From Neorhizobium galegae (GTDB lineage: Bacteria; Pseudomonadota; Alphaproteobacteria; Rhizobiales; Rhizobiaceae): a stretch of DNA of 64,000 nucleotides. The number at the start of each line of letters is the position of its first letter. Positions within the stretch are counted from its first letter, which is position 1. Under the pieces are notes generated by a model. It saw only the letters and a list, made by a program, of their open reading frames with translations. It was not told the DNA's origin and did not search any database. The stretch lies in assembly GCF_017877135.1 (NCBI RefSeq), contig NZ_JAGIPH010000005.1:248001-312000 (forward strand), written 5' to 3'. A program made the translations under genes and the position numbers. Shown piece after piece: positions 36,141 through 40,150 of this stretch.

Positions 36141-36215
36141 GCGGGCGTAGCTCAGGGGTAGAGCACAACCTTGCCAAGGTTGGGGTCGAGGGTTCGAATC
36201 CCTTCGCCCGCTCCA
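36141..36215 (+). tRNA. tRNA-Gly (GCC)
   Basis: A full cloverleaf of 75 bases. The acceptor arms are GCGGGCG / CGCCCGC, the D arm GCTCAGGGGTAGAGC, the anticodon arm CAACC TTGCCAA GGTTG with anticodon GCC at 36173-36175, and the T arm AGGG TTCGAAT CCCT. The discriminator is T and CCA is encoded. It reads GGC and GGU codons. Confidence 0.98.
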
Positions 36216-36362: not shown

Positions 36363-37472
36363 TCAGGCCTTCGGCATCGGCCCGACATAGCGCGACTGCG
36401 GGCGAATCAGCCGGCCGGTTTCTTCCTGCTCCAGCACATGCGCCGTCCAGCCCGCCATGCGCCCCGCGGCAAAGACATTGGTAAAGCTGTCGCGCGGAAA
36501 GCCGACCGCCTCCAGAACGAGCGCCGTGTAAAACTCGACATTGGTTTGCAGCGGCCGCAGCGGCTTCTTCTCCTGGAGTAGCGCAAGCGCTGCCGTCTCC
36601 ACCTGTTCGGCAAACCGGATACGGCCATTGCCATCCTTCAGCCTAGCGACGGCCCCCTTCAACACATCGGCCCGCGGGTCGCGCACGCGGTAGATGCGGT
36701 GGCCAAAGCCCATCAGCCGTTCGCCGCGCGCTAACGCATCGGAAAGCCAGTTCTCGATGCGGGAAGCGTCACCGATGGCATCCAGCATGTCGAGGACCGG
36801 CCCCGGCGCGCCGCCATGCAGCGGACCCTTCAAGGCACACAGCGCCCCGACAACGGACGAGAAAAGCCCCGCCTTCGTGGAGGCAATGACGCGTGCGGTA
36901 AACGTGGAGGCGTTGAGGCCGTGATCGGCAACCGTCACCAGATAGGTATCGAGCGCCTTGACCTTGTCCGGCTCGGCCTGCGCGCCCTTCAGCATGCGCA
37001 GGAAATCTTCCGCCTGGGACAGTGATGCATCCGGCTCCACCGGGGAAAGCCCCTGGCCGCCACGGGCAATGGCAGCGGCAAAGACCGGAACGGCGGCAAC
37101 GGCAAGCACCGGATGGGCTGTGGTTTCCTCATCCGGCAGGGCTGCGAGCAGAAGCCGCAACGCCTCCACCGGCGAAAGGCCCGATAGCGCCGGCAGGAGC
37201 GGCTGCATCAGGGCAAACGCCCGACCACGCGCGGTGCCGAGTGCATGTTTGATATCCGCCGCGCTCAAGACCTGCGGCGTCAGATCCCTCCAGAGCAGCG
37301 CAAGCGCTTCCTCGAACGTCCAGTCGGCCATCTCCTGCAGATGATAGCCGCGCAAGATCAGTTCGCCGGCGACACCATCCACATGGCTGAGGCGCGTTTC
37401 GGCGGCAATCACATCATCAAGACCGGGCGCCTGCGATGCGGTGGCGAGTACGGGAGTGCTGGGATGGCTCAT
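36363..37472 (-). CDS. Citrate synthase/methylcitrate synthase-like protein
   Basis: A 369-residue, short-type citrate synthase. The folding landmarks are ETRLSHVDGVAGELILRGYHL, ALKGPLHGGAPGPVLDMLD (first catalytic His) and LMGFGHRIYRVRDPRADVL (second His). The third catalytic position, Asp in NVDFY of most citrate synthases, is Glu here (NVEFYTALVLEAVG). It condenses acetyl-CoA (or propionyl-CoA) with oxaloacetate if active. It is divergent, 104 bases away, from a second citrate-synthase homologue with an HTH domain. The true TCA-cycle gltA is probably elsewhere. Confidence 0.87.
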   Translation of the reverse strand: MSHPSTPVLATASQAPGLDDVIAAETRLSHVDGVAGELILRGYHLQEMADWTFEEALALLWRDLTPQVLSAADIKHALGTARGRAFALMQPLLPALSGLSPVEALRLLLAALPDEETTAHPVLAVAAVPVFAAAIARGGQGLSPVEPDASLSQAEDFLRMLKGAQAEPDKVKALDTYLVTVADHGLNASTFTARVIASTKAGLFSSVVGALCALKGPLHGGAPGPVLDMLDAIGDASRIENWLSDALARGERLMGFGHRIYRVRDPRADVLKGAVARLKDGNGRIRFAEQVETAALALLQEKKPLRPLQTNVEFYTALVLEAVGFPRDSFTNVFAAGRMAGWTAHVLEQEETGRLIRPQSRYVGPMPKA

Positions 37473-37545
37473 GGCATTTCCTCTTTGTGGGATTGTTGTT
37501 GTCAATTCCGCTTGAGAATGTTGCAGTGCATATATATCGTCAATC

Positions 37546-37562
37546 TTGATTCATCCAATCAA
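37546..37562. promoter_or_regulatory. Candidate operator between the divergent citrate-synthase genes
   Basis: TTGATT-CATCC-AATCAA is a perfect 6-bp inverted repeat with a 5-base spacer, in the AT-rich part of the 104-base divergent region, 14 bases before the HTH-citrate synthase start. A dimeric MerR-like protein could bind here; the adjacent gene encodes one. Confidence 0.4.
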
Positions 37563-37576
37563 TGTGAACCTTGCCG

Positions 37577-38767
37577 ATGAGCCTGCGCGAAAAATTCATG
37601 ACTGCCGAAGCCGCTGCTGCCACATTGGAGATCAGCCGGCCGACGCTTTACGCCTATGTCAGCCGCGGCCTGATCCAGACGAGCGGTGCAGGAGACGATC
37701 CGCGCCGCAGGCTGTACAGCGCCCACGACGTGGAGGAGTTGAAGAAGCGCAAGGCCGTCGGCCGGCGGCCGCGAGACGTGGCGGCGACGACGCTCGATTG
37801 GGGTCTGCCGGTTCTGTCCTCTGCCATCACGCTGATCGACAACGGCGCGCTTTATTATCGCGGTCGCAATGCGCTGCATCTGGCCGACACCGAAAGCCTG
37901 GAAGACATTGCCCGCCTGCTGTGGGACTGCGGCGAAGACGACCCGTTCTCTCAGGCAAAGGCGACGCCCGAGACCTTCGACGCGCAATTGCTGGCAAAGA
38001 CGGCAAGTCTGCCGCTGACGGAGCGTTGCCAGTCGCTGCTGCCCTTTATTGCCGTCGGGCGGGCAACGGCCTGGAAGCGCAATCCGCAGCGTCTATGGCC
38101 GGGCGCCTGCGCGCTGCTGCGCACCGTGGCCGGCGCCGCTGTCAGCCGGCAGCCGGACAGCCGGCCGATCGACGCGTGTCTGGCAGACGCCTGGGGGCTG
38201 GATGACAAGGGCCGTGATATCGTGCGGCGCGCCCTTGTTCTACTGGCCGATCATGAACTCAATGCCTCGGCCTTTGCCGTGCGTGTCGTCGCCTCCACCG
38301 GCGCCTCGCTTGGCGCCTGCCTCAATGCCGGCCTGTCGGCACTGAGCGGCCCGATGCATGGCGGCACCACAAGCCTTGTGGAACTGCTGTTCGATGAGGT
38401 GGAGCGCGTCGGCGATGCAGCGACCGTGATCGAAAACCGCCTGCGGCGCGGCGACAGCGTGCCGGGCTTTGACCATCACCTCTATCCGGACGGCGATCCG
38501 CGTGCGCGCGGACTGCTTCCCCACCTGCCGGAAAATTCAGCACAGGCCGATCTGCTGGCGGTGATGAGCGACATGGATGGCAAGCTGCCGAACTGCGATT
38601 TTGCGCTGGTGGCGCTGCGCCGCGCCCTCGGCCTGCCGCAGGGATCGGCGCTGGCGCTCTTTGCCATCAGCCGCACGGCCGGCTGGATTGCCCATGCGCT
38701 GGAGCAGGCGCTGGACGACAAGCTGATCCGCCCCCGCGCGCGCTATACAGGCCCGGCCATCGGCTGA
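37577..38767 (+). CDS. MerR-type HTH domain fused to citrate synthase-like domain
   Basis: A 396-residue protein. The first 65 residues are a MerR-like DNA-binding domain (MTAEAAAATLEISRPTLYAYVSRGLI and RRRLYSAHDVEEL). The rest is a citrate-synthase fold: LPVLSSAITLIDNGALYYRG, SALSGPMHGGTTSLVELL (His), PGFDHHLYPDGDPRARG (His, divergent from GFGHRVY) and LPNCDFALVALRRALGLP (Asp kept). It may sense a citrate-synthase substrate or form a heteromer with the divergent partner. The start at 37577 keeps the residues before TAEAAA that homologues have; 37598 or the TTG at 37571 are alternatives. Confidence 0.85.
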   Translation: MSLREKFMTAEAAAATLEISRPTLYAYVSRGLIQTSGAGDDPRRRLYSAHDVEELKKRKAVGRRPRDVAATTLDWGLPVLSSAITLIDNGALYYRGRNALHLADTESLEDIARLLWDCGEDDPFSQAKATPETFDAQLLAKTASLPLTERCQSLLPFIAVGRATAWKRNPQRLWPGACALLRTVAGAAVSRQPDSRPIDACLADAWGLDDKGRDIVRRALVLLADHELNASAFAVRVVASTGASLGACLNAGLSALSGPMHGGTTSLVELLFDEVERVGDAATVIENRLRRGDSVPGFDHHLYPDGDPRARGLLPHLPENSAQADLLAVMSDMDGKLPNCDFALVALRRALGLPQGSALALFAISRTAGWIAHALEQALDDKLIRPRARYTGPAIG

Positions 38768-38838: not shown

Positions 38839-39390
38839 ATGAGCGACAAGAGACACCCCTTCGATGTCCTGAACCAGCTGGCAACGCTTCGCCGCTATGC
38901 CCGCTCGCTCGTTCGCAATCCCGACGACGCAGAGGATCTGGTGCATGATGCCCTGGTCAAGGCCTATGAGCGCAAGGCGAGCTTCCGCAACAGTGGCAAC
39001 CTGCGCAACTGGCTGCTGTCGATCGTCCATAACACGCATATCGACCGCATCCGCGCGCGCCGTTCCACCGACAATCGCCACAAGGCCGCCGCCGACATCG
39101 CAGAGACCGTGCATCATGCCGATCCGGACCAGTCGATCCGGCTGAAGCAGTTGCGGGAAGCCTTCTTTGCCCTCTCGCCGGAACAGCGGGATGCGCTGCA
39201 CCTCGTCGCCATCGAGGGACTTTCCTACCAGGACGCCGCAGACGCACTGGCCATTCCCGTCGGCACGCTGATGTCGCGCGTCTCTCGGGCGCGTGCGGCC
39301 TTGCGCGCCTTCGAGGAAGCCGGCCGACGCCCGTCCGAGGGCGCCAACCATCTCAAACTCATTGAAGGGGGACGCGATGAAACCCGTTGA
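38839..39390 (+). CDS. ECF-family RNA polymerase sigma factor
   Basis: A 183-residue sigma factor. Region 2 has LRRYARSLVRNPDDAEDLVHDALVKAYERKASF and LRNWLLSIVHNTHIDRIRARR; region 4 has LSPEQRDALHLVAIEGLSYQDAADALAIPVGTLMSRVSRARAAL. It redirects polymerase to stress-type promoters. The start has only GGGG next to the ATG, not a normal ribosome site. The anti-sigma gene overlaps its end by 14 bases, so the two are translationally coupled. Confidence 0.93.
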   Translation: MSDKRHPFDVLNQLATLRRYARSLVRNPDDAEDLVHDALVKAYERKASFRNSGNLRNWLLSIVHNTHIDRIRARRSTDNRHKAAADIAETVHHADPDQSIRLKQLREAFFALSPEQRDALHLVAIEGLSYQDAADALAIPVGTLMSRVSRARAALRAFEEAGRRPSEGANHLKLIEGGRDETR

Positions 39391-40150
39391 TCCGGTCCAG
39401 TCCGCCGATGTGGAAGCCTATGTGGACGACCAGCTGGATGCCGGCCGCCGTATCGAGGTGGAAGCCTATCTTTCGGAAAATCCCGACATCGCAGCACGGG
39501 TGATGGCCGACCTTGCCATCAAGGGCGAGCTGCGCCTGGCGCTTGCCGAAGGCCATCGCCATGGCCGGCCGGAGACCCGTGAGGCGGCGCGCCGTCTGCA
39601 GGGTGCTCTGTCGCGCGGACGCATTTTTCATTCCCTCCAGCGGCTTGCTGCCACAGTGGCACTGGTTGCTGCCGGCTGGGGCCTCAGCAGCCATTTCGGC
39701 CCCTTCACCGTGTCGGAAGTGGTGGCCTCCGTGCCGCCGCCCGCCTTCGTGGAGGAAGCCATCCGCGCGCATGGCACGTCGGCACTGCGCCACACCATGC
39801 ACTCGCAGCCGGAAGCCCCGCGCTTCGACCCGACCGAGATCCGCTCGGCAACCGCCATCGTCATGCCCGACATCCCGAAGGACTGGCAGGTGGAAGACGT
39901 GCAGATCTTTCCTTCCGCCTTCGGTCCGAGCGTCGAGATGGCGCTGACCGATGGGGACAAGACGAGGCTGTCGCTGTTTGCCGTCCGGCCCGGCAGCTTT
40001 GCCGTGCAGCAGGTGTCCGATGTCACGCAGGAGGCCGTGAAGGCCTCCTACTGGCAGATCGGCGAGGTGGCCTATGCGCTGGTCGCCCATGCTGAAAATG
40101 CCACCAACCTGCGTGGCGAGGCCGAACGCCTTGCAAAATCGCTTTACTGA
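39377..40150 (+). CDS. Membrane-anchored anti-sigma factor
   Basis: A 257-residue protein. The N-terminal cytoplasmic part (MKPVDPVQSADVEAYVDDQLDAGRRIEVEAYLSENPDIAARVMADL) is like the sigma-binding domain of anti-sigma factors, though without the zinc-ligand His-x3-Cys-x2-Cys. A transmembrane helix lies at about 90-105 (LAATVALVAAGWGLSSHF), then a periplasmic domain of about 150 residues. It should hold the ECF sigma factor inactive until an envelope signal. The start follows AGGGGG by 5 bases inside the sigma gene. Confidence 0.87.
   Translation: MKPVDPVQSADVEAYVDDQLDAGRRIEVEAYLSENPDIAARVMADLAIKGELRLALAEGHRHGRPETREAARRLQGALSRGRIFHSLQRLAATVALVAAGWGLSSHFGPFTVSEVVASVPPPAFVEEAIRAHGTSALRHTMHSQPEAPRFDPTEIRSATAIVMPDIPKDWQVEDVQIFPSAFGPSVEMALTDGDKTRLSLFAVRPGSFAVQQVSDVTQEAVKASYWQIGEVAYALVAHAENATNLRGEAERLAKSLY

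Follow-up and report, generated by a model that had tools for sequence, protein, structure and literature searches.

Several one-component regulators are built on the fold of a metabolic enzyme, among them the MocR/GabR aminotransferase fusions, the shikimate-kinase-like BzdR/BoxR, the sugar-kinase-like ROK proteins, PutA, BirA and NadR. MerR-family regulators act at promoters that hold the operator within a 19–20-bp spacer, and in Bacillus subtilis the citrate synthase gene citA stands divergent from citR, which encodes a LysR-type regulator that controls it. Here we describe a locus in a 64,000-nucleotide stretch of Neorhizobium galegae DNA (contig NZ_JAGIPH010000005.1, positions 248,001–312,000; hereafter the window), in which the gene of a CitA-type citrate synthase (P0001) faces that of a second homologue (P0002) joining a winged helix-turn-helix to a citrate-synthase domain, a fusion that we call HTH-CS. 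Given its DNA-binding head and the same putative operator upstream of its gene in many bacteria, HTH-CS is probably an unrecognised switch: we put at roughly 80% the probability that it is a local one-component regulator, repressing its own gene and switching the divergent one.

Two published systems come close to this locus. In Caulobacter crescentus, CitB (CCNA_03757) and CitC (CCNA_03758), neighbours by locus number, are 37% and 32% identical to B. subtilis CitA, and growth of an Escherichia coli gltA deletion was restored by CitB but not by CitC (PMC7083601). Passages of that paper treat CitC only as a non-complementing paralogue, and the terms ‘helix-turn-helix’ and ‘MerR’ occur zero times in its main text (PMC7083601). 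In Xanthomonas citri, a second study describes prpR, located upstream of prpB, as the gene of a repressor of prp with the binding site GTTGCAA-N2-TTGCAAC, and compares this PrpR with that of Salmonella (PMC12153269).

The window genes are divergent, with start codons 104 bp apart; an earlier sequence-only reading of the window had the coordinates, strands and gap right, as well as the fusion of a citrate synthase to a helix-turn-helix. In Pfam, Citrate_synt (PF00285) matches P0001 at 337 bits and P0002 at 196 bits (cut-off 27), and the head of P0002 matches HTH_17 at 27.9 bits (cut-off 27) and, just below the cut-off of 21.6, MerR_1 at 21.4 bits. The domain composition recurs across the family. 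All 75 HTH-CS scanned with Pfam, out of about 140, match Citrate_synt, and at E 0.001 their heads match HTH_17 in 69, MerR_1 in 49 and MerR in 37 members; the structure model drew on 72 sequences, and the pool comprised 133 listed sequences plus that of the window. P0001 scores 438 bits with the CitA-type NCBIfam model NF009005, above its cut-off of 332, which HTH-CS does not reach (157.7 bits), and the nearest solved structure to P0001 by sequence is B. subtilis CitA (2c6x, E 2.2e-75). The source genome has three citrate-synthase matches, P0001, HTH-CS and, on another contig, a GltA with a stronger Pfam match than P0001. The ‘canonical-looking’ enzyme of the sequence-only reading is indeed a citrate synthase, but one of CitA type with a separate GltA in the same genome. 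The nearest named loci to the pair belong to Rhizobium and Agrobacterium.

Between the genes lies a 23-bp candidate operator, TCAATCTTGATTCATCCAATCAA, composed of three half-sites (TCAA-N2-TTGAT-N7-ATCAA). TCAAnnTTGA is present upstream of HTH-CS genes at 129 of 139 loci, compared with a mean of 0.3 (maximum 2) in 200 mononucleotide shuffles and 0.60 (maximum 2) in 50 dinucleotide shuffles, and no other of the 256 palindromes of the same form is as frequent (runner-up, 50). TTGAT-N7-ATCAA precedes 111 and the full TTGATT-N5-AATCAA 45 of the 139 genes (dinucleotide shuffles for each: mean 0.02, maximum 1). TCAAnnTTGA and TTGAT-N7-ATCAA combine into the consensus RTCAATnTTGAT-N7-ATCAA; the 6-bp inverted repeat picked out by the sequence-only reading is present, and its core stands far above shuffles. 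The loci are not independent, as many are close relatives (L008/L070 and L044/L081 are identical in the segment compared, and L234 is a 100% match to L135); with identical segments collapsed, TCAAnnTTGA is found in 127 and TTGAT-N7-ATCAA in 109 of 136. L040, too distant, was left out of the sets of 139 and 140, L069, whose match starts at residue 70, out of the upstream counts, and L068, whose upstream sequence is cut off, out of the consensus analysis.

Among 28 later loci, unused in motif discovery, 26 carry all three half-sites and the two misses lack a recognised partner; TCAAnnTTGA occurs in 26 of the 392 segments tiling these loci, operator segments included. It was not found at any of eight class-level synthase loci without an adjoining HTH-CS, of which five, from two genera, have a Glu-type synthase (with Glu at the catalytic acid). 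The exact three-half-site pattern has a single occurrence in the source genome, at the window locus, and a wide regulon was rejected on this ground. The looser TCAAYNTTGAY has 26 matches in that genome versus 7 for the reversed control (palindromic sites count twice), some of which may be further targets. Genome G025 has a second HTH-CS copy (G025:C6:32910-34070, minus strand), 49% identical to P0002 and without an adjoining synthase match, with its own operator directly upstream (G025:C6:34094-34116).

Both genes are present in 24 of the 36 genomes of the source genus and neither in the other 12, and one more genome of the order carries both. By strand and position, the partnered loci of four sets are divergent without exception (25/25, 26/26, 21/21 and 30/30), the first set being the loci fetched from these genus and order genomes, with the second copy of G025 left out. 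In a class-wide sample, every close relative of P0001 whose flanks are intact (21 of 21, counting the window’s own) has a divergent HTH-CS beside it; the neighbours of L277 and L279 are the HTH-CS of L057 and L059, and a contig end truncates L285. The case named in the sequence-only reading as a refutation, that the Glu form and the fusion always occur unlinked, is contradicted by these 21 loci. The Caulobacter HTH-CS search of the class sample at E 1e-110 returned 0 of 385. In the genus of Caulobacter radicis, reached through genome G671, HTH-CS is found in 55 of 61 genomes (E 1e-60), and all 30 loci fetched have a divergent Glu-type partner and the operator; in C. radicis, this partner and HTH-CS are 38.6% and 32.9% identical to B. 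subtilis CitA. Because the pair and operator occur throughout the genus loci and these identities are close to the published ones, the CitC of C. crescentus is almost certainly an HTH-CS.

Partners are exchanged while the operator stays. Classified by similarity to one query each, the 139 loci divide into 72 with a CitA-like divergent neighbour (L060 among them reads NVDF), 30 that face a family III CoA transferase, 16 that face prpB and 21 whose neighbour is something else or unrecognised; TCAAnnTTGA is present in 69 of 72, 29 of 30 and 16 of 16 loci of the three named classes and in 8 of 11 unlabelled ones. The prpB class comes from Stenotrophomonas, Pseudoxanthomonas, Luteimonas and kin; at L118, a PEP_mutase-family prpB is followed by a citrate-synthase-family prpC and an open reading frame (ORF) that is probably acnD. 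Other partners are an MFS transporter (Caballeronia), a CitMHS citrate transporter (a Bradyrhizobium) and an HMGL-like enzyme (Deinococcus). The facing CoA transferase, of about 470 residues (for example, L104:4469-5893), occurs in Burkholderiales, Pseudomonas and some alphaproteobacteria, and its substrate could point to the ligand of that HTH-CS branch.

In a tree with a single GltA as root, the HTH-CS sequences group as one clade (136 leaves, support 0.88) apart from CitA-like, PrpC and GltA sequences; three fragments (H rows L068 and L069, C row L100) and four identical rows were left out of this tree. Within the clade, CitA-like-facing and CoA-transferase-facing classes are interleaved. 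Parsimony gives 19 partner changes with ‘none’ counted as a state, a crude count because the upstream ORFs of L082 and L115, which matched no Pfam family, may be wrong frames. At E 1e-35, searches of 289 class-level and 398 phylum-level genomes recovered HTH-CS in 32 and 50, respectively. On the plasmid records, HTH-CS genes go under the names ‘citrate synthase’, ‘citrate/2-methylcitrate synthase’ and ‘citrate synthase family protein’. A distant relative on a Tsukamurella plasmid (Actinomycetota), with HTH_17 and citrate synthase domains, is 25.6% identical over 98% of the query; the site between the two genes there, TTGATTCAATCAA, has the same half-sites at a different spacing. This fusion faces a Glu-type synthase 54 bp away (L040:2834-5071). 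The Deinococcus plasmid copy L034 has TCAATCTTGATTCCAGAATCAA, in which the spacing is one base less, and it carries the TCAATCTTGA part of the operator.

Glu in the place of the catalytic Asp of P0001 (NVEFY) was read correctly from the sequence, and it is a mark of the whole CitA-type subfamily and normal there: NVEF with Glu is also found in B. subtilis CitA (2c6x) and Mycobacterium tuberculosis CitA (8gi7), and the synthases adjoining HTH-CS have Glu in 71 of 88 cases, Asp in 16 and a gap in one. The family-wide alignment of catalytic positions that had been suggested shows the HTH-CS triad to be kept (H264 in 138, H305 in 137 and D362 in 137 of 140 members), together with the substrate arginines (R314 in 140, R387 in 138 and R407 in 140), in what we take to be E. 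coli numbering. The reported change of the second His motif to GFDHHLY is real for the neighbouring residues (GFGH to GFDH, and R to H), but P0002 retains the catalytic His itself, as do 137 of 140 members, and GFDHHLY is therefore no His loss. Loss of the triad in HTH-CS was rejected, as His, His and Asp are all present.

These residues also bear on the proposal, made in the sequence-only reading, that the two proteins form a heteromeric synthase to which each contributes different catalytic residues. An assembly of this kind would fit the unbroken pairing of the genes across the alphaproteobacterial CitA class and their joint presence or absence in the source genus. Both proteins, however, have His, His and acid in place, HTH-CS is often without a facing synthase (30 loci face a CoA transferase), a same-strand arrangement is seen in none of 141 loci, and Caulobacter CitB acts alone in E. 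coli (PMC7083601), so that we consider a heteromer scarcely credible.

An AlphaFold2 model of HTH-CS (pLDDT 91.7, pTM 0.82) shows a helix-turn-helix with a hairpin wing at residues 10–61 (helices 10–17, 21–29 and 49–61, hairpin 35–48), a low-confidence linker at 68–75 and, beyond it, a complete citrate-synthase fold. The top-ranked matches in both Foldseek and VIA-align are citrate and 2-methylcitrate synthases (VIA-align: Z 33.4, 318 residues, rmsd 2.6); the VIA-align rows listed are citrate synthases except for one with a different title (8gre), and residues 1–18 were barely tested. MerR proteins have a long dimerising helix; the model has only a 12-residue helix at 65–76, weak evidence since it is a monomer model, and therefore the citrate-synthase domain probably forms the dimer. 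A search of PDB sequences with the helix-turn-helix gave two matches, both insignificant, one of which was BrlR (E 0.25). The recognition helix TLYAYVSRG is almost invariant across HTH-CS, and its L24, Y25, V28, S29 and R30 are identical in all 128 operator-bearing members.

The intact fold of the model, and the near-universal retention of triad and substrate arginines across 140 members, would also suit a trigger enzyme: a regulator that is at the same time an active synthase, possibly with a different acyl-CoA or 2-oxo acid as substrate, and whose turnover sets its grip on DNA. Set against this are the failure of Caulobacter CitC, almost certainly an HTH-CS, in the E. coli gltA deletion (PMC7083601), a DPRA-to-NxDF segment that falls short of the GltA length in the examples compared, and, in 90 of 140 members, an Arg directly preceding the first catalytic His. 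The published complementation suggests that the Glu-type enzyme works alone and that HTH-CS is no usable citrate synthase in E. coli, and we regard a trigger enzyme as rather unlikely. Slightly less doubtful, and still no more than tentative, is the broader idea that widespread ‘citrate synthases’ are moonlighting trigger enzymes that report the citrate or methylcitrate state to DNA and have been recruited repeatedly with their operator kept. With similar caution, such a family might extend through the Pseudomonadota, with relatives in Deinococcota and Actinomycetota, and bind, perhaps turn over, acyl-CoAs and 2-oxo acids.

The placement of the operator suggests how a local regulator would act. 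A plus-strand consensus scan reported one promoter-like site, TTGAGA-17-TATCGT, where 0.3 were expected, which by itself is no evidence of function; if this is the HTH-CS promoter, the operator would overlie the transcription start. The outermost half-site, read on the partner strand, is TTGAC/T, a candidate −35 box, and the proposed promoter of the window’s CitA-like gene has −35 TTGACG (37543–37538, within the operator), a 17-bp spacer and −10 CATTCT (37520–37515); the consensus scan did not report it. At 17 bp from this box, xATxxT is kept in the CitA class (70 loci; A 0.80, T 0.70, T 0.73), CAGATT, invariant except at one position, in the prpB class (16 close relatives), and TAxxxT, weakly, in the CoA-transferase class (30 loci; 0.50, 0.60, 0.73). 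Relative to the partner’s start, the operator would thus span about −54 to −32. A blocked −35 box speaks for repression, but an activator could also sit at the partner’s −35 position; the layout is consistent with negative autoregulation plus control of the partner.

In our proposed mechanism, the MerR-like winged helix-turn-helix of HTH-CS would bind the operator, and its citrate-synthase domain would provide both the dimer and a ligand pocket with the substrate-binding and catalytic residues. Bound HTH-CS would cover the start site of its own gene, resulting in negative autoregulation, and also the −35 box of the divergent CitA-like synthase. The ligand may be a substrate or product of the synthase (oxaloacetate or an acyl-CoA, citrate or 2-methylcitrate), the binding of which would alter the grip on DNA and switch the synthase gene, most likely by derepression; elsewhere, HTH-CS faces prpB, the family III CoA transferase or transporters. 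Comparison supports the operator, its genomic uniqueness, linkage, partner exchange, fold and pocket conservation; we infer that HTH-CS is the operator-binding protein, and likewise the sign of control, the ligand and the dimer geometry. The earlier suggestion of an enzyme-derived sensor controlling the pair gains strong support, at this comparative level, from operator, divergence, partner exchange and the missing operator at five Glu-type synthases that have no fusion beside them.

Table 1 Features of the citA-like/HTH-CS locus (window coordinates)
Feature	Position	Strand	Detail
CitA-type citrate synthase P0001, divergent partner	36363..37472	minus	369 aa
Glu replacing catalytic Asp in P0001	36534-36536	minus	codon
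Candidate HTH-CS promoter-like site	37512..37540	plus	TTGAGA-17-TATCGT; consensus scan
Proposed promoter of CitA-like gene	37515..37543	minus	positional conservation
Candidate operator TCAATCTTGATTCATCCAATCAA	37540..37562		TCAA-N2-TTGAT-N7-ATCAA, 23 bp; three half-sites
Core palindrome, right part of operator	37546..37562		TTGATT-N5-AATCAA (6-5-6)
HTH-CS P0002, winged helix-turn-helix and citrate-synthase domain, proposed regulator	37577..38767	plus	396 aa
Helix-turn-helix domain of HTH-CS, residues 7-58	37595..37750	plus	PF12728, 27.9 bits
HTH-CS residues 75-387, citrate-synthase domain with a proposed role in dimerisation and sensing	37799..38737	plus	PF00285, 196 bits
Catalytic His261 of HTH-CS	38357-38359	plus	
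Catalytic His300 of HTH-CS	38474-38476	plus	
Catalytic Asp341 of HTH-CS	38597-38599	plus	

Around the pair, an ECF-type sigma factor gene (Sigma70_r2, r4_2; 38839–39390, plus strand) begins 71 bp past HTH-CS and is followed by an ORF without a Pfam match that resembles an anti-sigma factor by look (39371–40150, plus strand); a tRNA-Gly (gcc) gene (36141–36215, plus strand) lies near the end of the CitA-like gene.

Several observations weigh against HTH-CS as the local regulator. In the stretch searched, 10 of 139 HTH-CS genes lack TCAAnnTTGA: in two of them (L068 and L125) the sequence upstream is short or missing, L149, counted as a miss, had a wrong frame and does carry the motif, and L143 (one mismatch), L048 and L066 have degenerate versions; L036, L037, L131 and L132 have no version of it, and L215 and L219 of the later set are likewise without the operator. 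Some of the operator-less members (L037 and L132) retain the recognition helix, which therefore does not strictly track the operator; L131 and L132 lie inside a CitA-facing branch and retain most of the helix. A pure sensor would not need the full catalytic triad that HTH-CS retains. The promoter assignments derive from consensus and positional conservation, and in the closely related prpB-class loci neighbouring positions are conserved too. The three-half-site pattern is also found in relatives without a full-length HTH-CS match, such as G037, G041 and G055; the most operator-like of these sites, in G037, lies between ORFs that by eye resemble neither HTH-CS nor its partners. The operator could also be the site of a different regulator, with the helix-turn-helix of HTH-CS serving otherwise, for example in protein contact, as the few members that keep the recognition helix without the operator would allow. 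The operator, however, accompanies HTH-CS across three partner classes, its TCAATCTTGA part recurs at the Deinococcus plasmid copy, and it is missing at the five Glu-type synthases without HTH-CS, and we hold a different regulator to be very unlikely.

If HTH-CS proteins are regulators, roughly one in eight sampled proteobacterial genomes (50/398) would have a core metabolic step misannotated, and metabolic models would include an enzyme that is not present. A model bacterium would gain a precise operator and a likely target (Caulobacter citB/citC), and a citrate- or methylcitrate-responsive switch would be a useful biosensor.

Among the systems compared, X. citri PrpR resembles HTH-CS in being encoded by a local regulator gene upstream of prpB and differs in its binding site; it was set aside as an HTH-CS candidate for this difference. 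Its place is held by HTH-CS in the Stenotrophomonas, Pseudoxanthomonas and Luteimonas loci fetched, and with the sites differing, HTH-CS seems to occupy the position of another regulator in related genera. Our literature search gave nothing relevant for the name PrpQ and no structure paper for M. tuberculosis CitA.

Like members of the MerR family such as BrlR, HTH-CS has an N-terminal winged helix-turn-helix, the turn of which we take to be of MerR type by its motif, a C-terminal putative sensor and a divergent presumed target gene. Unlike them, it would replace the long dimerising helix with a whole citrate-synthase fold as dimer and sensor, and its partner promoter would have a 17-bp spacer with the operator on the −35 box, in place of the longer MerR spacer. 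With enzyme-fold one-component regulators it shares the joining of a DNA-binding head to a metabolic enzyme fold as the likely sensor, and it has their layout of head, enzyme fold and a conserved operator between own and target gene. It differs from them in the fold: a citrate-synthase fold in a sensor role, or a citrate-synthase/HTH regulator, was not found in the literature searched, which left most subscription papers uncovered. If our reading is true, the citrate-synthase fold joins the enzyme folds used as transcription sensors. As in B. subtilis citR-citA, a CitA-type synthase at the window locus would be under the control of a divergently encoded local regulator, but here the proposed regulator is itself a relative of citrate synthase.

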